Assembly: GCF_029962835.1 (NCBI RefSeq)
Contig: NC_080577.1
Span: forward strand, 4,464,001 to 4,528,000
Length of the DNA: 64,000 bases
From: Magnolia sinica
Lineage: Eukaryota > Streptophyta > Magnoliopsida > Magnoliales > Magnoliaceae
Direction: 5' to 3'
This document shows positions 15,801 through 33,921 of the stretch, piece after piece. The translations under genes were made by a program, and so were the position numbers. Below the pieces are notes generated by a model. The model saw nothing but the letters and a program-made list of their open reading frames with translations. It was not told the origin of the DNA and did no database searches. Position 1 is the first letter of the stretch; the number at the start of each line of letters is the position of its first letter.

Positions 15801-18800
15801 TTCTCCAGGCCAGGAACAAAGCATCAATCAACCCCAGCATTACTCGCAACAAATAAAAGAGAGGAATCTCCACCATAGGAATGAAGCAACATTGCAATGG
15901 GTAAAAATATGGTTCACGGTGTCATTGAGGCTGGGAAGCAAATATTCATGATAATCATTGTTAAAATCCCCTGATATACATTGATACACCATCCTCTAAC
16001 AGCTCGAGCTTTTACAGAAAGTGGTTATTTGTCATGGTATTAGAGCAAAAGGTCTTGTGTTCGAATCCCAAGAGTAGCAAATATGCCTCCCTAATATATT
16101 CTCCCAAGGGGGGGCCGTTTATGGTGTGAGTGTCCCTCCACCTGGGTGTGAGTCGTAAGTGTGTGCCCCTCTACCCTTGCCCATTATGTTCCCGTGCAAA
16201 GTTCAACCCCGCACATGTGGGGGAGTGTTACTTTATCATTTGCAGCAAGACACCAAACACAGTCCTCTCTCTCTCTCTCTCTCTGGTTGGGGGGGGGGGG
16301 GGGGGTTGGGTATAAAGGGGCAACTTGACTCACCGTCCAACCATTTTGGAGCATATGATAGAAGAATTTGACTTAGAACACACCTGATTCATCACCCTTC
16401 CACCTCTACTTGTATGAATTACCGGGAGAGAAGATAAATGCCCAAATCCCATCTTGAAGCTTTATTAATCCACCAATCTCCTCATCATTACCCAAGGGGC
16501 ACCAACTCATGTTTACATAATATGCTCTTTCAGGCTTACCACTTCCACCTTCTTGTACATGACTAAATACTTTCAGATGTTTTAGACTTTATATGCACTT
16601 CCGGAGTGCATTTATTACAAAAACAATTCAAGGACATACAAGCCAGCTTAGTTAAAACTGTCCAGATATTATGGGCCAACAAACAAACTACAACCAGAGA
16701 TAGCTAGGAGAAATCTTATAATCTAGCTAAAAGAAATCTTATCTGCTATGACCCAAGAGGATGGTAATTATATTATAGCAGCTAACTAATAATCTTTGAA
16801 AGATTTTATGGAGAATTATAGAAAAACCAAAGATCTCTAGCAAAATAAGAAGAAGAAAAAAAGAGCATAATTGATTTTTACCTGCTCACCAATAAAAGCA
16901 AAGACATGGTTGACTGTAACACAAACTGAAGAATCTAGGATATCATTCAATATATTGAGAATCTAACCTTCCTATTTCTCACTTGATGAGGACATCCTGC
17001 TGGAATAAAAACTGCTTCCCCAAGGTATTGCTCAAACGTCCAAGGTTCAACATCTGCATAAAGAAAGAACATAAACAATGTAGAGTATGAAACAACAGAA
17101 CCTTGTGGCCAAACTTGAGAGCCTAAGTTAAAAATAAAAAATAAAAATCACTTACCGAACTCCTCTTTCAGCTGCTTCTTATGCCTTTCATTCAAGAAAA
17201 GAGTTTGGTCATGAATTGGATGAATAACCTGAAGCGAGCTTGGTAAGAAATGTGTAGATATGTTCCCTAATAATGAATTGCATGATAAAATGATACTTAA
17301 CGATACTCACAGAATTGACGGGAAGGCTGCTTATATGACGAAATTCTTTCCAATGCTTTTGCAAGTACTTGATTAGTTTTGGCACATCCTGCCTACGAAA
17401 GATATCCCAAACGGCACCTCCATAAACAACTTTCGAAGTGTCATCACTGTGAAGAGAATCATTCACTTCATCTGACGTTGTTGACCCTGGACCAGAAATT
17501 CCCTTCTCCTCTGAAAAAGAATTTCTGAAAGCATCATCCTTCCCATTGAAAGGTTTGTTTTCTAATGTCAGATTAGCATCAGTGGGGGGAACATCTTCTG
17601 GATTGCATGATTGCCTCTCAACTATTATTTCAGAATCAGCACCAACTATGTCAGGACAGCATCTAGATTTAGAGCCGGGAGCAATGCTTGCATCAACCTT
17701 ATCTGCTGATGAAGAATCCCTGTGAGCAACAGACCTGCTTTTAGAAGAGCTGGATTCTGAAATTGCAAGTTTTTCTCCATCCCGTCTTTCTAGCAACCTG
17801 TTACTGGTCTTGGGCAAAGGTGAATTCCTCTCATCGTTACTTGCACATTTATGAAGTCCGACATCTGTATAGTGCTGTTTATCTAGCTTCTCCGCCTTGA
17901 AATCCATGTCTTCCTGTAATAGTGAATTTCTATTAACAGTATTGTAAGATGTAGGAGAATCAGTACCTTGCGCCTGATGATGTTCATTATGTAACACTGT
18001 TTCCTCGATATCAATGCTATCTGGCAACAAGCCCTCGTGCATTAAAGAACCTTTCATTTCCATTTGTTGGGTCTCAGGCTGTTCTTTCTCCAAATACATT
18101 TTCTCCAGCAACGGGGAGTTGCTATACACAATGTCTCCACATTTTGAATTGCAAGATTTGTTCGTCTTATCAACTTGATCATCCAAAATCTGTGTCATCA
18201 GGTTTATGTCTTCTTGCAATAGTGTGTCAGGACCAACCATATCTGTACATTTCGGAGAGCCAGAAAGTTCCAGTGCAATTTTATGTTTATCTGGTTCACC
18301 TCTCCCTACATTCATTTTTGGATTGGAAGATTCATTCATCTTATCTGCTTGATCATCCAAAACCTGCATCTTCATGTTCATATCTTCTTGCACCAGTGTG
18401 TCAGGATCAGCCATATCTGTACATTTTGGAGAACCAGACAGTTCCAGTGCAATTTTCTGATTATCTGGTTCACCTCTCCCTGCATTAATAAATGCTGATG
18501 ACGGCAAAGTCTTCTCAACAATGCCATCAGATTGTAAATGTACAGAGTCATTAGCATCAAGTTGTTCGGTTTGACTTCCTACTACTCCGTCTGAGAATTC
18601 TAGTTTTTCTGCCCTTATATTTTCACCTTCTAGCAATGGTGGATTGCTCTCAACACCGTCTTCACATTTTGTAGGTACAGGCTTTATACTCTGAAGTTGT
18701 TTCCCTGATCCATTTATCTGTATTTTAGTAGCATCATTTGCCACTTTGTTTATCCCCCCACCGTAAAGTTCTCGCAAGTCTTGAGCCTCATGTTTCTTCT

Positions 18801-21800
18801 GCATTTTTCTTATACCATCACGTTGCCATGCAGCCATTTTCACCTCAGTTGTGTGTGTCAGAACATTAACCTAGACAAAAAGCAACAGTTTGATGATCAC
18901 TTAAAGAAGCAGCAGGACAGCTTGAAGAGCAATTTGTCCAGATAAAGGAATGGGAAAAAAATAAGAGGAAAGATTATCAACTAATTAACTAGACCATTTC
19001 AAGTGACATTGATGAAAATCATATATGGCAGGTGAGGGGAAGGAGTTTAACACTCTTAAGTAAGGTCAAACAATCAGCCTCGGATGTAAAGGGTAATCAA
19101 GTCGTTGCAATTTGAATGAATGAACTTAACTTTAATATGCCTTAGAAGGCCTATAAAAATAGGTGTATCACAATAGAAAGGCAAAGATTATCATTTGCAT
19201 CAGGAAGCTTTGGACATATGACACATATCAGACCATCAGGAAACATTTAGAAAAATTAAGTTGCGCATGCACTTAAAAGACCATTGGTAAGCATTCTACA
19301 ATAAACAGAATCACAATAGATCTCTAATAGAAATTAGGAACGGTCCAGCCTGAGGTATCAGCAGCGATAAATGATAACACAATTAGACTTAGCAACCATG
19401 GATAAATGACATGCAACTCAGAACAACTCATTCAGTCTCGAGTTGAATCCCAACTCGCCCGATTAGATCTGGCAACTGGATCAGGTCTGACAGACCCAAA
19501 ACCTGACTCCCAGTTAGTTAAAACGTGCTAGAAATGAGTTAGACAACAAATAACATAAAGCCCGATGATATAATAACATGCCTGATGTCTTTCTTTTTTT
19601 ATTTTATTTTTATTTTTTATGACACTCATGATACCACATCTAATGATTCATAAAAGAAAAGGTAAGATAACTAATGTTATTCATTTTAGAAAATGTGACA
19701 CTGAAATGGAAAGTCTACCCCTACTGCATATTATTCACGCTAGTAACGAAAGTGAAATCCTGGTCGTATCACATGATATTAGAGGCACCTTATATTTTTC
19801 AAGGGGCAATTTGGTCATCACTATTTGCAACATCAGTCTAGTCTTTCGACCAGTTGTACATTTGAGGATCATCATGGTTCACAGAGCATCCATAAAACCT
19901 GTGCATAGCTTTGATGCCCAGCCAAGAAGTGGACAAAAAATATACACAGGGTATGGATTTTACACTTACGGCCCATTTGGGGTCTCTTATCTAATCCAAT
20001 AAGAGCCACTCTAATAAGCTCCTATTGAAAAAGCCGCTCCTCCTTTCTTTGGAGAGGTATCGTCAAGACTACTCCCATTGTTCAGGAGGTAATCTCTTTT
20101 TCCTTCAGTAGGGGTACTAGAATCAGATTTTGGCTTGATTTGTGAGCAGGTAATTCTACACTTGCCGAAGCATTTCCCTCTCCTTTTGCCCTTAGCCCTA
20201 ACATAGATATTGTTGTGGCAGGTTGCTTTTCCCCCATGACTCGTGTGGGAGCTGGGCCCCTCCTCTTAGAAGAGATCTTTCATATGTAGAATTTCAGGAT
20301 TTCTTACTTCTTCTTGGGCGATTGCAGGATTTTCACGTTGATCCCTAGTGGAAGACTCCCTGCGCTGGAGGCTCTCAAACGACGGCTCCTTGGTCAAATC
20401 CTTCTACAATCATCTTCACTCCTCTGTTAACTTCACCTCCCATTGTCACACTGGGGCGCAATGGTTCTATGGGCTTCCTCCTAAAGTGGAGGCCTTCGGG
20501 TGGCTAGCGGGTAGAAACAAAATTCTGACCATTGACAATCTGAAGAAGAGAGGAATGGTGTTGCCCAATGTCTGTCCCCTCTGTCTCAAAGCTGAAGAGT
20601 CTGGTGATCACTTCTCCTCCATTGTCCTTTCACCTCAGCTTTTTGGTGGAGTATTCTTCGCCTTGCTGGTGTTTCTCGGACAATGCCCTCCTCCCTTGAC
20701 GATCTTTTTTGTTCCTGGCATGCTGATGCTGGGGGAGTGTCATGAAAAAAAAATTGGCGGATCCTCCTTTTTGTTGTTCTGTGGGCAGTTTGGGTGGAAA
20801 GAAACAACCATTGCTTCAGAAACATTTCTACCTCCTTCGCTATTGTTTTCTTTAGAACCCTTGTTATGTTTAGGGATTGGGCGCCTTAACTGTTGCTTTG
20901 GGTAAGCCTCTATAGTTTTTTTTTTTTTTCGAGATGCTAATAAAATTCTTACCTTGCAAAAAAAAAAGCTCATTTGGTAAAATCACTATTTTTAGAGAGA
21001 AAAAAGCTCTTATTTAAAATAAGCACATTTGGTAAAACATTCAAATGAGAGCTTATTGTAAGAGCATTTGATGTCATTTTTTAAAATTACATTAACTATA
21101 TTATAAAAGCTATCCAAATGGTTTTTTTGGTGGCACATTAAACAAGTTGCAACATCCACATACCTCTCTACACGCTCAAGAGATGGACTTGGCCTGAGTC
21201 TTAGGGCCCTTTTTTGTGGATCTCGTATGTTCATGGTAGGATCTCTTTCGGTCATCAACTTTATCAAGTTGGAATCATCTACGAATAATTCTAATCATTC
21301 CAATTTAAAAAAAGAAAAATCTATTGATCAAAGAGCCTTCATAGGGCCAATCGTGAGGTTTATTTGCCATCTAACTTGTTCATAAGGTCACACAGACCTA
21401 GAAGAAGGGAAAAAACAAATATTAGCTTGATCAGAGCCTTTTGTGGCCCCAAGAAATTTCCAACGATGGGCATCAATTCCTATTATTTCCTATGGTGTGG
21501 TTTACTTGAGCTTTGAATCCACCTCGTTTTTCAACTCATATCCTAGAATAATCTTAAAAAATGGATGGACGGTGTGGATCTAAGAAATACATCATTGTGG
21601 GCCCATGTAAATTTCACAAGTTCCGTTGCTCACTGTTTGGTGCAGCACATTCTAAGAGAGAGAAGGAAACCGGACGTGGACACGGATTAGGTATTATCCC
21701 GCCTGTCCCGAGCTCAAAACAAGTTGGGGCTCTGAGGGGCCACCGTGATTTATGCGTTTATCTACACCATCTATCCATTTTTCCATATCATTTTAGGGAA

Positions 21801-22319
21801 CAACCCCAAAAATGAGGCAGATCCAAGTCTTAAGTGGACCACACCATAAGAAGCAGTGGTGATAATGACTCCCACCATTGAAATCTTCCTAGGGCCCACT
21901 ATGATGTTTATTTTCCATCTAACCTGTTCATAAGGTCACATAAACCTGGATGAAAGCAAAACACAAATATCAACTTGATCCAAAATTTTCGTAGCCCCCA
22001 AAAAGTTTTCAACGGTAGTTGTTTATTCCACAGTGTGGCCCCCTATCAGCACAGACGATCCACACTCTTGATCAAATGGATAGGGTTCTTGAATTGCGTG
22101 ATTATTTACCCATGGGCTATTAATAGAAGGATCCTCCAAATGGAAGGTCATGATTCACCCATCACCCGCACCATGGCCATAGTGACCGGCTATGGCAGCA
22201 GCGGTGATTGCAGGCGGGCAAGATGGGGAAGAAAAGCCACAAGTTGTACCTAGCACCAAAAAGCACGAGCAAGAGGGACAACAGTCGGCGGGAGGGATGA
22301 TGAGAGAGAGAGGAGAAGC

Positions 22320-22362
<43 letters not shown>

Positions 22363-25300
22363 AAAAGTCACTAGAGAGGGAGAGAAATTGCGAGGGTAAT
22401 TTTGGAATTTCAAAAAAAAAAAAATCTCAAAACCTCTTCCCGCAAAAGCAAAAATAAGCTCTTATTAATAAAGTAACCACTCCTTTACCTATCATTTAAG
22501 AGCTTTTTTACTTGTTTATAATTTAATTAATTTTTTTTTTTTTTTAAGTGCTAATAATCAATGTTTACCAAACAGTCTATTTTAGCAATAAGACTAATCT
22601 TTTCAGCAATAATCCTAATAAGCTCTTATTATTAGAGATGCCTAACACCCCCTTAATATGCAAGTACCCGATACAAATAATATACAAGAACATTACCTTT
22701 TTTTAAGGTGAATAGATAATGTTGATTCCCTCATACATTACCTCTTTGGATAGATATGACCCCAGTACCATAGGGATGAGTATCTATGCTGCAGTAACAA
22801 CATTCTTGAACTATGGTTTGAAGTCACAAGGAAACATGCAGACTTTTAGTCAAATCCTAAAGTAATAATGAGAGTATCTACTGCAGTAAGCGCGTTGCTG
22901 AACTATGATCTGATGTCACAAGGAACTAACTAGATTTTTAGTCAAAATCCTGAAGCGTAACCAGGAAATAAGCAGCCTTGGTTAGAAAACAGGAGGAGAC
23001 GGTAATCCGATGAACTGTTTCAAGATGCAGAAATAAGTTTTGTTATTGCAACACCAAAGAGTGTCCCGGCATGAAGATTACACAAACCAATCTGTCAGGA
23101 TAAACAATTCATTTTAGCATGCACAATAAATAATGAACAGACCAAAGATGACCACAAACCATATCAAATAAACTAGAAAAAGAAACGACATTCTTTACTT
23201 AAGCTCTAAACAATTTCGGAGCACCGTTGGAAGTGAAGGATACATACCGCATCAGACATGTCACAATGCAGCTTCGTCACTGAATCACCTCTGCCAAGCT
23301 CTTCACAACATCCATATGCAATGTATGTTTTGGGTCCCAAGTCGGGCTTTAAGCAACCATCAGGAAGCTTTGCAGCAAGATTCAAAAGACCAGATCTTGG
23401 ATGGGTATAATCTTGATATGGGAGAGCTGCAATAAATTCAGCCCCATGCCTTGGTAGGCGCTCTTCAAATGCGCTTGAAGAAGGCCAATCCTTCAGCTTC
23501 AACATCTCTGGCCACCAATTCTTATGCATTCGACCCTCCAAGTAGCCTTGGAAGAATTGGTGAATATTAATCTCAACCTACAGCATGATGGGTAAATAGG
23601 AATCTTGTCAATTGGAGTACAACTTGCAGCTGCATACGACAGTTGTGTCAAAGGCCCTAAGCAATGTCGACATGTGTTACGTATATGATCGAACAAACTG
23701 ACAGAGAAGAAAATGAAGAAAAGAATGGTTTTTATTTTATTTACTAATAAGTAACCTTGCTGTGGTCACACATTATCTATACTCAAAAAACTGAAAATGG
23801 CTTACAAAATTTAGATAATTTTTTTTTAATTGATTTATTCTAGTGTGGACAAATGAAAACTAAATAAAAAGAGAATGAATCATTCAACTGGTATATGCAC
23901 CTTTTGCAGGTTTACTTAATCAGGACTCTCGGAGAGCTATAATAGGTATAAACACCATTTGAACAAAATGTCTTGTAACGAAGTTTTGGTCACAAATATA
24001 ACCACCATCATCATCATCTGAACCTTCTCTAAATATCAACAATATAACCATAATTAGGCCAAAGTTCATGTGAAAAGCTTCAAACTTGGTCTCTGTTAGT
24101 ATAATTATAGCAAGTTTATGACCATCGAAGAAACATGCTATTTCCATGAGAGGCTGAATTGAGTCCTCCAATGTAGTTCTCATGGAAAGGGGGCTAGCCA
24201 TGAATGAATAGGAGTATCAAAAACCACTTGGAGAACTCCCTGATTATGTTCACATCTGATTACATTACACCCTTTCATGACACATGACAATGAGAGATGG
24301 TCCCATTTGCTAGGTGCATATTGTGAAGTTGGCGTGGTTGCGATTAACTTTGTTGTTGAATGAAGTTCCAATTTGGTGATGTGTAAGGTGAGAAAAGTAA
24401 AAAAAAATGAGATAAATGACACTATCTTCAAGCATAAGAATGTTTATACCAATGTCTTAAAACCAGGACCCCTACCTGTTTTGTGTGAGTGGCTCGTTGA
24501 ACCAGTCAGGCTCGTTCCAACCCGGGACAACATTCAAAATCTCAAAGTATCACTAAACAAAATGAACAAAATAAAAGGAGCAGCATAAAGTGTCCAGTTT
24601 CTAAAGTGGAGGTTGTAGGTTCAAGATCTAACAAGCAATTACCAAGGTTCCAAATATCAGTATCAGACAGTATAGGCTGTACCAAATATAATATTATGGA
24701 GAATATGAACCATATCCATCTGACTTGTTTCAAAAAAATATCAGATAAAAGAAAGGGGAAAAAATGAGAAAATTAAGAATCTAACATTTACAGTGTCTTA
24801 AAATGTATTCAATGTTCAATGGAACCAATTTTTGGTATGTTTTTTGTCAACCTGGTCTGCTGAAAACCAAGTCGTTTAGTCTGACCTCTAAATTTGGTGT
24901 TAAAGCATTTGGGAATAATAAATTCTTTTGGTTGATTTTCAACTCTTACTATAATGGGGTTCATTGCATATTTTAATGCAACAGCACGAAATGACCACAG
25001 ATTATCCAGAATGAAAATATCTGTGATAACAATCGCAAATATTGTGAATGCAATAAATTAACAATCTATTAGTGAATACCATAAGAGAAACTTTTATATT
25101 GTGGGAGAATGTGATGGATGATACACAGGCACTTATAACTTCAAAATTGCATACGTGCAAGACAAGTAATTCAAATTAAACTGTTTAAATTATGATGAGT
25201 TCCAGTTTAGATGTAAAATGAACCAGTTTAGTGAGCATTCATTGGATGGTTAGAATGAAAAATATCCAACTGTCCTATGTCAACAAATAAGCATCCACAA

Positions 25301-28300
25301 ATCAAAAGTTGGGATTGTTCAACCAACCTGATTTTGGGGCTCTGAGTTAGCGACAGTTGGTTCCCCAATTTAGTCAGCTTAGTTTGAGTTAAAAAAAGGT
25401 GTTGAGAATTAGACAAGTTGATGATTATGGGAAGAAGCATGAAATGCATTCGAAGAACAAAAGGGAAAGGCTAACCTCACACCAATCCAAGCAATCTATA
25501 GCTTTGACAGTTCTATTCTCCTCTTTGACGTTTTTGTTGCGCATCTCTCTAACAGCTCTCCACATGACCATTGGCTCCCAACTAAGGCCGGATGTCCTTT
25601 CATGAACATCTCTAACTATTACTGGTTCACCTCTCACCCAGTGACTCTGAAAATGCTCAATTCCATCACCTCCCAAGTCTAGTGCATTTGGGCAGTACAG
25701 AAAGTTATTGCAACTGTTCTCTCTAGAAGCTGCCTGGCGCAAATTACTTTTGTTATGTTCAGCTGGAGAACCATTAGGAAGGCACAAAGGGCACCCCTGA
25801 GATAAATCATCATTGGAAAACTGACAACGGCTAGTAAGGTCCTCTGCATTCTTAAGCAGCTTGACTACCCAATTAACTTTGAATGTACGCCGCAACACCA
25901 GTAACGCGATGCCACAACCACCACGGGCCTTTGGAGGACATTGAATGCTACCATCACTGGTCGCTACCCAATCAGGAAAGGGGCGGGATGAATCAGTAGC
26001 ACAATCATTTGTGGCTCGTGCCAAATGACTCTCCCAACCAAACCTTTTCCTTTTGGTGTTACTTTGGGTGCTTGCATCTGTACCTTGACCATGAGTTCTT
26101 TCTACAAACTGCTGGTGAGCAGACTTTGCTTCACTTCCTCCAGGCTGCCGACCTTCCCGGAGCTCTCGACAACATGAGAGACAGAGATCATAGGAACACT
26201 CGGGGCAGGTTCGGTAGAAATCAACAACGGATGTATGACAATTGTCGCTGTTGGAAAAAGCAATTCGCACAATTAAAAGAATGGAAGAAAAAGGAGTCAG
26301 TGTTTTTTCAAGATTATAAAAGAATTTTGCAAATTCTCAAATTTTATAGACTTATGAGAAGAATAGGGAATGCTTTAATGAAAGGTATCATTCCAGATAA
26401 GAATAAATCTGTAGTACAGCCTATCTAATATCTGGCAAGTGATCTCTAGAGTATATTATAAGTAAATAGCAAGAGCAAAGAAATGAGACTGACCAACCAA
26501 AATAAGAAAAGATGCTAGCATAAGTGCATTCATTCTTGACGAAAAGAACTGATAAAATATAGAAATTTCAGCATCAAATCATAAAATGAAATTTGTAAAG
26601 ACGCACCAACACTTCAATGTTTTTCAACATAATCATTAAGAACTTTTTTAAGGCCAAAAAAATTATTAATGTTGAGTTTCAGGATCAGTCATTTTTATAA
26701 TAAAAAAATGATACCGCAAAACCACAAAGGAGATTTTATTTCCATGATCTGATGATTTTCATTGAATGGATCCCCTATTTTCTGGCCTGAGATAGGTTGC
26801 ATCTCTAATATTTATCATGATGACAACTGCACAGACAGTTGTGACATATTAGTGATTTGGCATCATGGTCCTGGGGCATAGACTTTGGTTCCAACCTCTC
26901 TAGGTCTCCATCACCCTATGGTCTAATAAATGCACTTTCAACAGTTTGAAAAAGAAACAGACTAAAAATCAATACACTTTTCAGATTTGATGGAGTATTC
27001 CTACTACTTAATGGAAAATTAAAGTCATAATCCTTCACCATGGTTTTAAAACATGACTAAATCAAGTTGTGATACTTCAATAAGATTCAGAGGTTACTAA
27101 AGCAAAACTGCAAGATAAGTCGATGGTATCCCAAATTGGTTTGTCTTCATCGATTATAGATCATTGCAGAGTGAGTAATCAAATACATTAATAAGTTCAT
27201 CCTATGTTGTATAAACACTATACAATATATTCCGTAGTTACTCTTTTAGATTAGTAATAGGATGCACATAGGCACATTTATATTATCCTTGTTTAAGCCT
27301 TATCCCAATTAAATGGGGTTAGCTATACAAATCTTGTTCCACCATTCCACTGGTATCAAGGACCATATTCTCAGTTAAACCATAGGTCATCAAGTCTTTT
27401 CCTCTGGACTCCCCCCACGTCCTTTTGGGCATTCCCTTGCCCCTTTAGAGCCCTTTTTCTTGAAGATTGCCAATTCAATGAAAATTGATTTAGCATGCAG
27501 GTGATCAAGGGTCCAAAGGCATGAGATACCACAATAGAATAGAAAATTTTCCTAAACTCTGAACCGCAGTTAGATCCATTCTGTACATTTTGAGTAGCCA
27601 TGCAAAAAAGTAGCTTTATATGAAATGCATAACTTTTCATATGAGAATAAATCGAAAACATAGGGGCGGGCAGCTCAAATACCAGTAAAGACGCTCATCC
27701 TTGTCAAGCATAGACCTTGTTACACATACTTCCATTGGTTGGATCCCTAGAGGGGAGAGGGAGAAAAAAAAAAGCTGAGGGCAGGCTAATGTGGTGATGT
27801 ATTTCAAGAATGGACCTAAAAGCAAACAAAACTTTCATCTAAACAATTAAATAAGATTAACAACCTTGTATTTTGGCTTCAATTTCTATTTCAGATTGCT
27901 GCTCAGAATGAATTTGCCTAAGGACGGGCAGGACTTTCTGTAGCAAGTAGATCAGCCGTTGCAGTTTGACATTTGCATCTGCTTCCTGCCTGCTAGGCTG
28001 TTACAAGCACACCAAGTAACATGTTTTAAAGAAAATGTTCTAGTACTATAAGTTGTCAAGAAAAGAGGCTAAAGTAGCAGGAATTCTACCATCATGACCA
28101 CATTACGCAAGCATGCTTTGCAATTGCAATTTCCACAACAGACAGGACATGTAGTCTCAATGTCCTCTCTTGTTCTTTCAGGATACCTAATTCATTTATT
28201 TCAAACAGAAGAACAATGGTATGTATTAGTCTATTAGAAGCTTTCCATCTAAATAATAAGTATTCAAATACAAGAAAATTGAACAAACAAATAGTGCTTC

Positions 28301-31300
28301 TATTCCCAAATATTCCATCAATTAATCTAGGACACAATAAATGTCAGTAAAACATCAGTTTCCTGATTCCTTTAACTTCCAACATCCGTGCATCAATAAA
28401 AGAAAGGAAATGCCCAAATCTCTTCAAATCTATTCATCAGCTTCCCAGTCTCTCTGCAGAATCCTTCATAGCTGTGGCGGCAGTTCATGCCCCTATGTGG
28501 GGGAGTATCACAGTATTGGGCAGTTGTAGCTATACATAACAAGATTAGCATGCCTCACCCAAACAAACAAAAAAGGGGGGTGAACACCCTAAATCTCAGA
28601 TCTGATAAAACATTTTAAACTTGATCAGCGATTTTAGGATCATCTACTTTCTGAATAATTAAAGGGTATTTTCATCATTTTAGGAAACATAAGTTCACCC
28701 AACCTTTCGAGTATACATGTTTCTTAGTTTCAAAGGAATAGAAGTTTTGGTAGTTCTTACCACTTTTCAAGGCAGGGATAGCAGTAGCGCTTCCTTTTGC
28801 AATTAGAACATATGACAACATCACCCTTGTCATTCCGCAGACATTGGTGGCACATCAAACTCTTCTGTTCCTCTTTCTTACATGTACCATCCTAGAAAAT
28901 AGAGCTTATTAGAATTTAGAACTGAGACAAAATTATATTTGAGTGCTAAAAACTACTATAATCAGAGCATGTTACCATAACATCAACAGATGCATCAAGA
29001 TAGGAATGATCAGTAACTGGAGAAAATAACAATAAAGAGGAAACTTTCCTTTCTTTATAAACTGGTATGTGCAAATAAGGGCAAAAGATGGCAAAACCAA
29101 CATAAACAGCATAAAATGGAGGAAATCTAAATAATTCTTCAGGTATGTTTGCATAAATCCTAAGACTATACAAGAATAGATTATCAGCATCATCATAACC
29201 TCATCCCAGCATTTTAATGTCGGCATCACGAATTTGCTGAGAAGAACTTTTAAGACCAGTGTTAAAAGATTAGATGAATTACTGGAATCATGATTGCAAG
29301 AAAAACCAAAAAGTTCGCAAAACTCTTTGTAAGTCATGCAGCAGAGCGGACCAACCTTGGTTTAATTTCATTTAAACTCTTTTAAGTCTGAATGATACTC
29401 ATTTTAAATTTTTTCCCCTTCTTAGTTCTTGAAATATTAGTTATATGAAGTAGGAATACGATCAGGAGCAGGAGCAGAAGTCTATGCAGGTGGGAGCATC
29501 AGGACACCTAAGAAGCATCTATGTAATAATATTAAATAGTTTAAAATGTATTATAATCTTTCAAATAAAAGTTGAAAATGTATTATATTTACCGAAATAT
29601 ATAACTTAAAACTTTTTTGACTGGTAAATATATAAATTTACTTGGTAAAAGTGAGCAGAAATATATGTGAACAAAATTCAGAAAATGACAAAAACTACCA
29701 GTAGTCTTTATCTTTATGAATAACGCTATTATAAAAAATGATTGAATTAAAGGTGGTTTAAGTAGAATCATGGTAGTGATGGTTGGTGGCAGAGGCAATA
29801 ACAGACTTGAAAGCAAGGCAGAAGCAGGAGATCCCAAATTAGGTATGGCATCTCAGGGGGAAGATAAAAGCAGGTGAGGGATGAAACCAGTCAATGGGCA
29901 CATTCACGAAGTTCTTTTACAGTGAAAGTAACAATCACATTAAGTTCTAAAATTGGGATAAAAGTTTCATTAATGCATACATTAGTTATTGGATTTCCTC
30001 ATAAGATAATTTCATCCAAATCAAGGGAACCCTGCCTATTAGTGTCACTAAGCCAAACAAGAGAGTTATCCAAAGAGAAACATTCTAAATTTTCACCATA
30101 AAATAAAAAAGTTGAGTAAATCAAATACAAGTTTGTGAAGAATTACCAAAACCAAAACATAAACAGAAGAATAAATACGAAAAACAAAAACAAAAGGTTC
30201 ATTGAAGTCATAGGTCTCATGATCAAGCTGAAGAAAGGAAAAAGGGGGGGAACTCACTGATGATCCCGTCTCTGCTACGCCCTTTCCAACATTCTGTTTC
30301 CTCCTGCTGCAAGAGTTCCTCGTCTCCTCAGAGAAGTTCCTCTTCCCCTCGCCAGAATTCCCCGCACCCTCACCAAATTCCCGATCTTTGCTCCCCATTG
30401 CATTGGTTCGTTCCTTATTTTTAGTGGTAATGTCCTGCAAATAGAAGTCAATGAGAATAAGTAAAACCAAAACAAGACGAGAAGATAAAGACATTAAAAA
30501 TAAATAAAAAATCTGGAAGGATTGCTCAAGTCCTACACCTCACATTCAAGTTGAAGAAGATGAGTAACTTACTAATGATTCCATCTCTGCTACCCCATTT
30601 CCAAGATTCTGCTTTCTCTTCTTGGCAGAGTTCATCATCTCTTTGCAGATACTCCTCGGCTGCTCACCAGATTTTCCTGTCCTCTCGCCTAACTGCAAAC
30701 CTTTGCGATCCATGACATTACTTTGTTCCTTTTTTTCACTAGTAACATGCTGCAAACAGAAAGTCAGTTGAGAAAAAGTGAAGGGAAGAAGAAATAAAAA
30801 TAAAAATTGGAGCAATTGTTCGAATTATAAGTCATACGTTCAAGATAGAGAAGGTAAATAACTCACTGATGATTCCATCTCTGCTACCCCATTTCCATCT
30901 TTCCACTTCCTCTTCTTGACAGAGTTCCTCATCTCCTCACAGGCATTCTCATGCCCCTTGCTAGAATTCCCCATCCCTGCAACGAGTTCCCGTTCATTGC
31001 TCCTCAGTACACCAATTTGTTTCTTGTTTTTACAGTTAACATCCTGCAAAAAGAAAGTCACAAGAATAAGTAAAACCAAAACAAGAACAGATGATAAACA
31101 TAAAACAAGGACTGTACAAGTAGTACGTCTCTTGTTCAAGATGAAGAAGATAAGAACTCACTGATGATCCCATCTCTGCTACCACATTTCCATGAGCCTG
31201 TTTTCTCATGCTACCTAAGTTCCTGGTCTCCTCACAGGAACTCCCCATTCCCTTACCAAGTTCCCGATCTCTACTTCCCAGTGCACTAGTTTGTTGGTTG

Positions 31301-33921
31301 TTTTTCCTAGTAACAAGTTGCTAACAAGGGGGGGGGGGCACATTAAACCAAAATATGAATAGAAAGTAAGCATAAAATGCATTTTTTTGAGTCCTAGTTC
31401 CTGCATCCCATGCTCAAATTGAAGAAGATAAGAACTCACCGATGATCCAATCTCTACTACTACATTTCCAAGATTCCGGTTTCCCATGCTGCCGGATTTG
31501 CACTTCACGTCACAGGAATTCCTCTTGCTGTTGCCAGAAGTCCCCATCTCCTCACTGAGTGATCTAGCTTCTCTCCCCATCACACTAATTTGTTTCCTTT
31601 TCTCACTGGTAGGATCCTAAAATAGAAAGATCTTCTCACTCAGAACTCTAAAAGAAGTCATCTAGGGTAGAGAAAAAAATCAAAATCAGTTCATCAACCC
31701 CAAAAGCTTAAAGACAACCACAATGTCCAGTGGACAAATCAATAAGGGTAGAATGGTGTAAGAGAGGGAAGGTGTGCAGTTCTAAATACATATTATATGT
31801 GCATGTAGAAATGCTGCAAAACTAACAGAAGCAATGACCATTCTGAACTAACAGAAGCAAACTGTTTTAAGGGCCCGCCATGTTGCGTATGTGCAATCCA
31901 GTCCATCCATTGGGTGGTAAACGCTTCTGTTCACAGGACATGCAAAAAATTAGCCTGATAAAAGAACTCAGATGGACCACCTCAATGGGAACAATGTAAT
32001 TTTGCACATAAAACCCCTTAAGTTCCCGCATTGTGGCCTGTCTGGTTTTGGATCAGGCTGATTTTTATATCTTCACTTGATCTTTGCGATTCAAACCTGA
32101 TGAACAGGTGTGATGAATGATTCACAACACAAAAAGCTATGGTTGGAGTCCCATTCCCATTGATCCTTGTGTCATCGCCCCCTGAGTTTTGGATCTAGCT
32201 GATGCACATAGTGGATTTCCCGTATAAAACATTTGGAAAGAAAATGACATTTAAGCTACAGTAGGTATATGTCCATCCACTTTTGAGTCCAGGTGGACTC
32301 ATTGACACAAGTGTCCAATCACATGTCATGGATGACTAGCTAAATTTAGTGAGCAATGATAGATGCGCATTCTAGTCTGCCACCAACGCGACATCGACAT
32401 ATCTGGAGCGTTCATCCAATGGCCCAACAAAAGTTGCTGCAAATAGACATCCTAACTATCCATCCATGGCCTGCAAATGGCTGGTTAGGAATGAAAATAC
32501 ATACCAACAAACTACATTCAATGGAAAATTTAAGGCCATGACTAGTCAGAGCCATGGATCGCACAAACAAGGTCCAGATGATCTCGGTGATACGTTGATC
32601 GAGCCAATCATCAGTCCAGATGTGATGATCTGTTGTCCAAGTTTTCCAAATCACCCCACAGATCAGAATCCAACTTTCCTGATTTGCTCCTGCTGTGACC
32701 ATCCCTTCATGTGAACATGAGTCACACGTGTAACTGACTGGTGCTACAAATTCCAAAGATGATGTCATCTGAAAATTGGAAAGAACTCAGAAATGTCCAG
32801 CGTTCTCTACGGATACACACTTTCATTCCACGTTTGGGGTATGGAACAAAAAGAGAGGGTGTAAATATCCATGAAACATGAGGCCCACACTTTTTAATGT
32901 ATACTCCTCGATACCTTCAGCCATCGTGACAAATATGTTCTAGGCAATTTCTTGGCCAGGGAATTTCTCGGGATATTTTCATATTTGACCTTTCGTCGCT
33001 GTATTATCGGGAAAATCTGGCGGAAGAAAATATTAAAAACTACTTATTATAAATTGACGGATAATTTAAAAATGTATGTATAAAGTTATAGAAATGATTT
33101 ATTTGAACTTTAAAATGTTTTTACTTCGAAAGGCGCGATAATTTCATTATAAAATAGCGAGGAAAAACTGCAAAATCAGTTTTCCGCAATAATATCGCGA
33201 GATTTTCTAATCTCGGCGATATTAGTCACAGATGCTTTCTGCCACTGCGGCAAAAAGTAGAAAACAACAAACAGGGGGGTGATATTGGCAAAAAAGCAGG
33301 GGCTATAAATGTCATTTTACGAAAAATTACCAGTAAATCCTTTTTTGCCCCTCCGTTCCCAAGAATCATTCTTTTCCGTGCGTCTGGAGTCATCTTCATC
33401 GCGCTGGAATTCTTCCCTCCGCCGGAATTCCCCTGCCTGTCGCCGGAAAACCGCTCACCGTCGCCGGAAACGATCCTCTTCCCGCCAAAATCGGATCCGT
33501 CCTTCGCCATCTTGTACAGAGCCATGGCCTTTTCCTGATCACCCAACACTCTCTTCATCAAATAATCCGTCTCGCCCACCTCGCCGTCTCCATCGTCGGA
33601 TCCCGATCTCCTTGTCTTCTTCACCTTCTTCGAGTCGTCGTTGATGTCGTCTAAAGATCTCTTCTTTGCCTTCTTCAATTTGACATCGTCAGTTCCGTCG
33701 AGAGATTGATTCTTCGCATTCTTCGATCCGCGATCCACATCTTGGCCATCTAAGGATCTCTTCTCCTTCTCCTTCTCTCTTCTCCTCTCGTATCGAGCCT
33801 TTGCCTGATGGTAATGCTTCTCGCAATATATTCTTCCCGGCGAGGCGGTATCATGGCAGCGCCAGTTTAAGCTGCCCACTCGTCTGCATCGCCGATCATC
33901 GGAAGGAGAAGATGAAGCCAT
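12775..33921 (-). CDS. JmjC histone demethylase, KDM3/JMJ25 type, 17 coding exons
   Basis: Predicted lysine-specific demethylase of the plant JMJ25 (KDM3/JHDM2) group. Family members remove H3K9 mono/dimethyl marks in the nucleus using Fe(II) and 2-oxoglutarate. Coding exons, in transcript order: 33331-33921, 31440-31616, 31162-31320, 30867-31043, 30573-30749, 30258-30434, 28761-28891, 28090-28186, 27865-27997, 27683-27746, 25476-26247, 23248-23577, 17311-18870, 17156-17228, 16968-17053, 13828-13947, 12775-12849. All junctions are GT/AG, phases agree throughout, and the sum is 4899 nt (1632 residues plus stop). Domains: WRC (about 12-36), five repeats (198-486), RING-like zinc region (about 500-560), second Cys-rich region (about 628-660), JmjC (about 870-1600). 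Iron ligands are H989, D991 and H1562. It is longer than the roughly 900-1200 residues I recall as usual. The WRC argues against a simple IBM1 orthologue call, so I give no symbol. Confidence 0.9.
12850..13827 (-). other. Intron 16 of the demethylase
   Basis: A/T-rich, nothing recognised inside. Confidence 0.6.
13828..13947 (-). CDS. Demethylase exon 16: end of JmjC
   Basis: 120 nt, phase 0/0. Encodes [20 protein letters not shown] then [20 protein letters not shown], strongly conserved in the family. Acceptor CTCAG, donor GTAGTT. Confidence 0.94.
13948..16967 (-). other. Intron 15 of the demethylase, 3.0 kb, repeat-bearing
   Basis: Holds an A/T-rich tract (about 14130-14215), a copy of a dispersed repeat (about 14890-15120), a minus-strand TRIM-like end (15172-15490), an A-rich patch (15595-15650) and a second, related LTR/primer-site-like fragment (about 15990-16250) followed by a CT microsatellite (16265-16283) and a G run. 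Confidence 0.6.
15172..15490 (-). mobile_element. TRIM-like LTR fragment
   Basis: Reads TGCAGGACAATTAACCACTT, the reverse complement of the end of the 10185-10473 repeats, and continues with the same GGTTAGGACCT and CCCACTCGAGCCC words. Only one terminal repeat is recognisable. Confidence 0.6.
16968..17053 (-). CDS. Demethylase exon 15: JmjC, third iron ligand
   Basis: 86 nt, phase 1 to 0. Encodes [20 protein letters not shown] followed by HQVRNRK. H1562 is the third iron ligand. Acceptor ATGCAG, donor GTTAGA. Confidence 0.94.
17156..17228 (-). CDS. Demethylase exon 14: JmjC
   Basis: 73 nt, phase 0 to 1. Encodes [20 protein letters not shown], the usual family segment. Acceptor CTTCAG, donor GTAAGT. 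Confidence 0.92.
17311..18870 (-). CDS. Demethylase exon 13: JmjC with about 400-residue acidic insertion
   Basis: 1560 nt, phase 0/0. It opens with [20 protein letters not shown] and closes with [20 protein letters not shown], both JmjC blocks of this family. Between them lies a long low-complexity, acidic and serine-rich insertion. KDM3-group proteins carry a variable spacer here; this one is long. It includes a tandem 58-residue repeat (DNA period 174 nt, roughly 18139-18312 and 18313-18486). Acceptor CCTAG-type (TGTCTAG), donor GTGAGT. Confidence 0.92.
18139..18486 (-). repeat. In-frame 174-nt tandem repeat in exon 13
   Basis: Two direct copies encode [18 protein letters not shown], then DTL.QED and DDQ.DK. 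The period is 174 nt = 58 codons, so the reading frame is kept. Confidence 0.8.
20035..20967 (+). mobile_element. L1-type LINE 3' fragment
   Basis: The plus strand encodes the C-terminal zinc-binding part of a LINE reverse-transcriptase protein: [50 protein letters not shown] and GDHF (the zf-RVT signature CPLC...H). Upstream, TRIRFWLDL and related words in shifted frames are typical of the same protein. The copy is truncated at its 5' end and has several frame changes. It ends in a 10-base A tail (20958-20967). Confidence 0.8.
21350..21625. mobile_element. Palindromic MITE fragment (one arm)
   Basis: Contains the loop words (CCATCTAACTTGTTCATAAG, CACAGACCTAGAAGAAG) and one arm ending ATGGATGGACGGTGTGGATC. 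Confidence 0.55.
21736..22060. mobile_element. Palindromic MITE fragment
   Basis: Left arm (GGGGCCACCGTGATTTATG, CCATCTATCCATTTTTCC) and loop are followed by only the start of the second arm. Confidence 0.55.
22324..22361. repeat. GA microsatellite
   Basis: About 19 GA units in intron 12. Confidence 0.9.
23248..23577 (-). CDS. Demethylase exon 12: JmjC core with HxD iron ligands
   Basis: 330 nt, phase 0/0, 110 residues. Contains [53 protein letters not shown] and LHCDMSDA. H989 and D991 of HCD are the first two iron ligands. Acceptor CTGTAG, donor GTATGT. Confidence 0.95.
23578..25475 (-). other. Intron 11 of the demethylase
   Basis: A/T-rich. A dispersed-repeat copy lies at about 25100-25400. 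Otherwise nothing was recognised. Confidence 0.5.
25100..25400 (+). repeat. Dispersed repeat copy
   Basis: Shares GATGGATGATACACA, CAGTTTAGATG, ATTGTTCAACCAACCTGATT and following text with 46640-46995 and, in part, 14890-15120; a reverse copy is at 48405-48540. The family is not identified. Confidence 0.55.
25476..26247 (-). CDS. Demethylase exon 11: second zinc region and start of JmjC
   Basis: 772 nt, phase 2 to 0. Encodes the Cys-rich DNCHTSV...[18 protein letters not shown] region, a long linker, and the family block [13 protein letters not shown]...[11 protein letters not shown] with the WCE that leads into JmjC. Acceptor CAACAG, donor GTTAGC. Confidence 0.92.
26248..27682 (-). other. 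Intron 10 of the demethylase
   Basis: Mostly unremarkable A/T-rich sequence, with a LINE (RTE-type) tail at 27275-27450. Confidence 0.5.
27275..27450 (-). mobile_element. RTE-type LINE 3' fragment
   Basis: On the minus strand it encodes RGKGMPK then [11 protein letters not shown] and LTENMVLD, resembling the conserved RGRGRPKxTW...DR end of plant RTE LINE proteins. It finishes with the common plant tail words AATTGGGATAAGGCTTAAAC. Strongly truncated. Confidence 0.6.
27683..27746 (-). CDS. Demethylase exon 10: short exon before second zinc region
   Basis: 64 nt, phase 1 to 2. Encodes [16 protein letters not shown], which corresponds to the family segment ending ERVYC. It joins exon 11 to give [12 protein letters not shown]. 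Acceptor CTCTAG, donor GTATTT. Confidence 0.85.
27865..27997 (-). CDS. Demethylase exon 9: helical linker
   Basis: 133 nt, phase 0 to 1. Encodes [20 protein letters not shown], a leucine-rich helix followed by an acidic stretch, as in family members between the two zinc regions. Acceptor TAACAG, donor GTTGTT. Confidence 0.85.
28090..28186 (-). CDS. Demethylase exon 8: RING-like zinc region, second half
   Basis: 97 nt, restoring phase 0. Encodes YPERTRED, then [16 protein letters not shown], a dense Cys cluster diagnostic of the plant KDM3 group. Acceptor AATTAG, donor GTAGAA. Confidence 0.9.
28761..28891 (-). CDS. Demethylase exon 7: RING-like zinc region, first half
   Basis: 131 nt, ending in phase 2. 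Encodes [15 protein letters not shown] and YPCLEKW: the Cys pairs C500/C503, C514/C517 and C523/C526 of the RING/B-box-like region that precedes JmjC in this family. Acceptor TTCTAG, donor GTAAGA. Confidence 0.9.
28892..30257 (-). other. Intron 6 of the demethylase
   Basis: No exon or repeat was recognised. The flanking exons have matching phase 0, so no missing exon is required. Confidence 0.5.
30258..30434 (-). CDS. Demethylase exon 6: repeat unit 5 of 5
   Basis: 177 nt, phase 0/0, 59 residues beginning DITTKNKER and ending GVAETGSS. Acceptor TTTGCAG, donor GTGAGT. It lies upstream of the RING exon with matching phase. Confidence 0.8.
30573..30749 (-). CDS. Demethylase exon 5: repeat unit 4 of 5
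   Basis: 177 nt, phase 0/0, 59 residues beginning HVTSEKKEQ and ending GVAEMESL. Acceptor TTTGCAG, donor GTAAGT. Confidence 0.8.
30867..31043 (-). CDS. Demethylase exon 4: repeat unit 3 of 5
   Basis: 177 nt, phase 0/0, 59 residues beginning DVNCKNKKQ and ending GVAEMESS. Acceptor TTTGCAG, donor GTGAGT. Confidence 0.8.
31162..31320 (-). CDS. Demethylase exon 3: repeat unit 2 of 5
   Basis: 159 nt, phase 0/0, 53 residues beginning QLVTRKNNQ and ending VVAEMGSS. It is 6 residues shorter than its siblings. The acceptor is TTGTTAG, the donor GTGAGT. Confidence 0.8.
31440..31616 (-). CDS. Demethylase exon 2: repeat unit 1 of 5
   Basis: 177 nt, phase 0 at both ends, 59 residues beginning DPTSEKRKQ and ending VVVEIGSS. 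Acceptor TTTTAG, donor GTGAGT. Homologous to the next four exons. Confidence 0.8.
31617..33330 (-). other. Intron 1 of the demethylase
   Basis: 31870-32340 has degenerate words of the palindromic MITE type (GGGCCCGCCATGTTG, GTCCATCCATTGGG, GGATCAGGCTGATTTTTATA). 33000-33220 has ATCGCGAGA/GGCGATATT words like the hAT-like family ends. No gene was seen. Confidence 0.4.
33331..33921 (-). CDS. Demethylase exon 1: start codon and WRC domain
   Basis: The ATG is at 33921-33919. Residues C12, C22, C33 and H36 give the spacing C-x9-C-x10-C-x2-H of a WRC zinc domain (NWRCHD, IYCEKHY). Basic and acidic Lys/Arg/Asp-rich segments follow and could act as nuclear localisation signals. The donor is CTG|GTAATT at 33330, phase 0. 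A stronger-looking GTGAGC farther upstream in the exon is an alternative donor, so the 3' border is less certain than the others. Confidence 0.75.

Follow-up and report, generated by a model that had tools for sequence, protein, structure and literature searches.

Five neighbouring, mutually homologous exons in a minus-strand gene of Magnolia sinica raise the question from which sequence a repeated exon of this kind arose, and what its repetition may mean for the encoded chromatin enzyme. The gene lies in the window, i.e. the whole stretch of 64,000 nucleotides that was analysed (contig NC_080577.1, positions 4,464,001 to 4,528,000); positions given below are those of the window unless a contig is named. 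Two known processes resemble what is seen at this locus: tandem exon duplication, reportedly treated by Kondrashov and Koonin 2001 and by Letunic 2002, and tandem genomic duplication that gives rise to introns, said to have been treated by Gao and Lynch 2009. Going by the available excerpts of the respective papers, the former has been surveyed in human, fly and worm (PMC9013439), and the latter has been described as an intron source (PMC2891723) with cases that include Arabidopsis and Oryza (PMC3443670). New is the appearance of each unit of the array reported here, which looks like a fusion of parts of two neighbouring exons.

Gene identity and spliced model

According to its domain composition (WRC, zf-4CXXC_R1 and JmjC), the minus-strand gene belongs to the KDM3/JMJ25 type, in agreement with the original prediction of a JmjC demethylase gene. 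The first 1,034 residues of the modelled protein matched the Pfam families WRC (E 1.3e-8) and zf-4CXXC_R1 (E 1e-6), and a JmjC profile match was located at window positions 16956-17066 (E 6.6e-5; converted from contig coordinates). The 15-exon spliced model, whose exon ends were set by hand on the basis of splice signals and protein likeness and which excludes the 3' end of the gene, runs from 33921 to 16968 on the minus strand and comprises 1,568 codons with 0 stops (Table 1). The motifs HCDMSD and GCPHQ are located in E12 and E15 of the model, respectively; thus, the HxD and the later H are both present, and we take these motifs to contain the iron-binding residues of the JmjC part. By its sequence the gene is a predicted KDM3/JMJ25-type JmjC demethylase gene with putative H3K9 demethylase activity.

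The occurrence of WRC, zf-4CXXC_R1 and JmjC together in one gene is shared with the KDM3 group of JmjC genes in a cotton survey, a group that includes Arabidopsis IBM1/JMJ25 (PMC9091307); in contrast to the gene described here, repeated exons are unmentioned in the available part of that survey. Within the accessible portions of the open-licence literature there was no report of a plant JmjC gene with repeated exons, which does not prove their absence.

A separate duplication was observed inside E13 (window 18142-18489, minus strand), where two head-to-tail 174-nt copies (58 codons; 86% identical, in frame) sit between the two JmjC halves; it looks younger than the exon array.

Table 1. Features of the spliced gene model, in transcript order (window positions).
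Feature	Position	Strand	Basis and remarks
E1, WRC exon, 591 nt	33331..33921	-	Pfam WRC; 3' end likeness to units
Intron 1, 1,714 nt	31617..33330	-	contains dispersed repeat at ~31858-32203
E2, repeated unit, 177 nt, phase 0/0	31440..31616	-	repeat search, spliced model
E3, repeated unit, 159 nt, phase 0/0	31162..31320	-	alignment, spliced model
E4, repeated unit, 177 nt, phase 0/0	30867..31043	-	repeat search, spliced model
E5, repeated unit, 177 nt, phase 0/0	30573..30749	-	repeat search, spliced model
E6, repeated unit, 177 nt, phase 0/0	30258..30434	-	repeat search, spliced model
Intron 6, 1,366 nt	28892..30257	-	begins with a copy of the unit intron (z 9.9, 0/200)
E7, first zinc-finger exon, 131 nt	28761..28891	-	Pfam; first 13 codons like 5' part of unit
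E8-E15, remaining zinc-finger and JmjC parts	16968..28186	-	stop-free spliced model; JmjC profile match

The array of five exons

The original prediction had described E2-E6 as five homologous phase 0/0 exons with like intron ends, multiplied in tandem as an exon-plus-intron unit of about 295 bp that leaves the reading frame untouched, and was borne out in each of these respects. Five copies were recovered in register by the repeat search, with spacings of 315, 294, 295 and 278 bp; all five exons start and end in phase 0, and each is preceded by AG and followed by GT. The homology of the units, on which the prediction had been staked beforehand, holds under alignment: exon DNA divergence among the ten pairs amounts to 25-38%, and the protein identity of the other four units to E2 is 40, 32, 39 and 36%. 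The four introns separating the units (119, 118, 117 and 138 nt) diverge by 25-44% (six pairs), which shows that the intron ends are truly alike. Among the unit donors, four read GTGAGT and one GTAAGT, and the unit acceptors end in TTGCAG (three), TTTTAG (one) or TGTTAG (one). A 26-nt motif of the 3' unit border, made by hand, occurred five times in the window at up to 3 mismatches (shuffle mean 0.00, n=100). The similarity extends into the first 200 nt of intron 6, which resemble the unit introns (none of 200 shuffles as good); in the shuffle test, no such likeness was seen for either end of intron 1 or for the final 200 nt of intron 6. The 295-bp array was not listed by Tandem Repeats Finder, as expected for copies that have strongly diverged, and a blastp comparison of the modelled protein with itself returned no repeat rows, though the repeats are plain in the other comparisons.

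E3 deviates from the other units by having seven codons fewer in its middle and one extra codon at its start. Its acceptor is preceded by eleven C (window 31328-31338, transcript sense) at a place where the other units are T-rich; compared with the other units, the AG in use seems to have moved upstream of the ancestral AG by a few bases without loss of the frame.

Two protein searches of the genome (1.84 Gb in 127 contigs) gave only the five window units and two units in a paralogue, and a scan of 92 loci revealed no further unit at E 0.1 or better; as the best candidates alone were scored, the unit count is a lower bound. With regard to the long introns that flank the array, the dispersed repeat of intron 1 (window 31858-32203) was found at 39 of 40 other scored places (the best 40 of 683 candidates) and is probably a small transposable element with many diverged genome copies; intron 6 gave no other genome match at the sensitivity used.

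Origin of the repeated exon

The two parts of the unit resemble two different exons of the same gene. The start of E7, in this gene as well as in the paralogue, is matched by the first 13 codons of the unit, up to a point just before the zinc-finger CHQC; the last ~41-46 codons of the unit correspond to the end of E1, the WRC exon, and both matches lie at exact exon borders. When windows of the repeat-free protein were ranked by their score against six of the seven units (E3 was omitted for its length), the E7 start took the first rank among 1,267 windows (score 23.3; next 12.2), and the E1 end in exact exon-end register the first among 1,239 (18.8; the next, 7.3, being the same place one residue off). 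The profile scores of both E7 starts and of the E1 end of this gene were equalled by none of 2,000 shuffles, that of the paralogue E1 end by 5 of 2,000. In an ungapped comparison fixed to the end of the exon, 1 of 2,000 shuffles was as good as E1 of this gene, and the paralogue E1 failed (1,257 of 2,000 as good). The likeness to the units is also visible in the DNA, with z 7.1 and 6.6 for the two E1 ends (0/200 shuffles each) and z 2.8 and 2.6 for the two E7 starts (1/200 and 0/200, respectively).

These matches suggest as the reasonably probable origin of the founding exon one tandem DNA duplication that reached from inside E1 across the intron to inside E7. Such an event would join the first 13 codons of E7 to the last 41-46 codons of E1 and thereby create a new exon, with a copy of the intron on each side, so that splice sites would be ready-made. 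Because the E1 and E7 borders are in phase 0 and the join is in frame, this exon could be included, skipped, multiplied or lost without any change of frame. Unequal exchange would later have multiplied the exon-plus-intron unit, to five copies in this gene, and the paralogue would have kept one intact and one dead copy; this direction and order of duplication we infer. With each unit, the flexible and charged linker that connects WRC to the zinc finger would become longer.

Alternatively, the likeness of the units to the E1 end and the E7 start may be the result of convergence between charged low-complexity sequences, the units themselves having been copied from an unrelated exon. Indeed, the sequences are charged and of low complexity, which counts against a fusion, as does the failure of the paralogue E1 in the ungapped test. 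Furthermore, the outer intron ends lack the recognisable likeness to the unit introns that a fusion predicts: z was -0.1 for the start of intron 1, 0.5 for the end of intron 6 and -0.15 for the start of the paralogue intron 1, and the 150 bases before the two paralogue units gave z 1.5 and 0.8. The outer introns may have been rebuilt, which would hide the likeness; its absence is still a real gap. Convergence is nevertheless judged unlikely, given that both matches coincide with exact exon borders and are ranked first in the rest of the protein, and that they exceed shuffles of equal composition and recur at the DNA level.

The proposed origin by a duplication across E1 and E7 has features of both known processes. 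In common with tandem exon duplication, homologous exons stand side by side, their flanking introns are alike and the frame is unchanged; different from it are the five copies in a plant chromatin-enzyme gene and a unit that resembles a fusion of two neighbouring exons instead of a copy of one whole exon. In common with duplication-born introns, an internal duplication alters the exon-intron structure and carries splice sites along. Whereas in that process a duplicated exonic AGGT makes the intron (according to the excerpts of PMC3443670 and PMC2891723), a pre-existing intron and parts of the exons on either side of it were here seemingly copied in one.

The paralogue

A paralogue on contig C3 contains, within ~27 kb, one WRC exon, two exons that resemble the unit and one zinc-finger exon. 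Its first unit (174 nt) has intact borders; its second (~177 nt; C3:126071901-126072077) is dead, with an in-frame TAG and with TG at the position of the acceptor AG. With two units, one of them dead, the paralogue accords with the earlier proposal that the number of units can change. The introns that follow both paralogue units resemble the unit introns of the window (z 5.7 and 5.5; 0/200 each), and from this likeness the unit together with its intron probably predates the split of the two genes, its number having changed later. In neighbour joining, the two paralogue units were grouped together, apart from the others, with a bootstrap of 0.74-0.79 (other splits: 0.24-0.38). The dS between the paralogues over E7-E9 (361 nt) is 0.43 and falls into the range among the window units (0.29-0.71), so that the order of unit duplication and gene split is not separable by these values; for E1, the two genes have reached saturation (dS 2.1). 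At two other WRC plus zinc-finger loci of the same genome (L022 and L025), the full interval contained no match to the unit up to E 0.1.

Constraint and structure of the units

The units contain 19% Lys+Arg and 13% Asp+Glu, in line with the charged stretch that had been foreseen between the WRC and zinc-finger parts, and the charge-hydropathy line places them among disordered sequences. An AlphaFold2 model of one unit had a pLDDT of 52 and no secondary structure (weak evidence, as the alignment held five rows); composition and model together point to a probably disordered unit. The presence of a known domain was rejected, the Pfam matches of the units to DUF4195 and YonK both being below the cut-offs.

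The dN/dS values of the ten pairs of window units range from 0.49 to 1.42, which suggests that amino-acid constraint is weak and near neutral and would allow nearly neutral drift. In a rough neutral simulation starting from the present sequences, the open state of all five units had a p of about 0.001-0.01. These observations point to a linker that is kept open yet free to vary. That the array is instead decaying, its exons mostly skipped or the gene heading for loss, would fit the weak residue constraint and the dead unit of the paralogue; it is considered very unlikely in view of the open reading frame and the intact GT and AG of five units out of five, and of a stop-free model of 1,568 codons.

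Splicing of the units

Most likely, all five units are routinely included and form a length-tolerant linker, by which WRC and the zinc finger would be set 289 residues further apart. Splice variants are possible: the C-run before its acceptor makes E3 the unit likeliest to be skipped, and all five units are expected in most transcripts. A more elaborate use of the array, in which the units act as regulated cassettes and different tissues include different subsets (up to 32 combinations, with linkers of varied length), is rather doubtful. It would be permitted by the phase 0/0 of all five units; the replacement of the T-rich tract by C before E3 and the second unit of the paralogue, which that gene presumably omits for its TAG and its lack of an acceptor AG, are compatible with it as well. 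However, the splice letters GT and AG are whole at every one of the five units, and exon skipping is a minor class in plants, making up 10-20% of events in a table of PMC2674458, the available part of which ascribes this to intron definition.

The similar lengths of the units and their like introns also recall known mutually exclusive exons (as portrayed in the excerpt of PMC6071210), where one of the five would be chosen through competing RNA pairings between a docking site and selectors. A first pairing test with intron 1 seemed to agree, as 0 of 20 shuffles were as good; however, the five elements were no longer alike in this control, and when intron 1 was shuffled instead, 10 of 60 shuffles were as good. 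The docking/selector pairing was rejected under this fair control. In the remaining three pairing tests, 3/20, 13/20 and 10/20 shuffles were as good. A mutually exclusive choice among the units is highly improbable. The fold of the whole region, computed for the native sequence, provided no usable signal.

Implications

Routine inclusion of all five units remains the preferred reading of the array. Beyond it, the fused, frame-neutral exon could be regarded as a cassette whose number, set by the genome and by splicing, determines the distance from WRC to the catalytic part and so adjusts the enzyme from gene to gene, from tissue to tissue and perhaps from one individual to the next; this idea is speculative and quite improbable as a whole. 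The units may nonetheless alter the geometry of a chromatin enzyme, their functional weight being putative. What the locus offers is exon birth in a legible form: each half of the repeated exon points back to its own parent exon at an exact border, and the paralogue retains an intact as well as a dead copy. In consequence, it becomes testable in a plant gene how a duplication can turn into a frame-neutral exon that is spliced.
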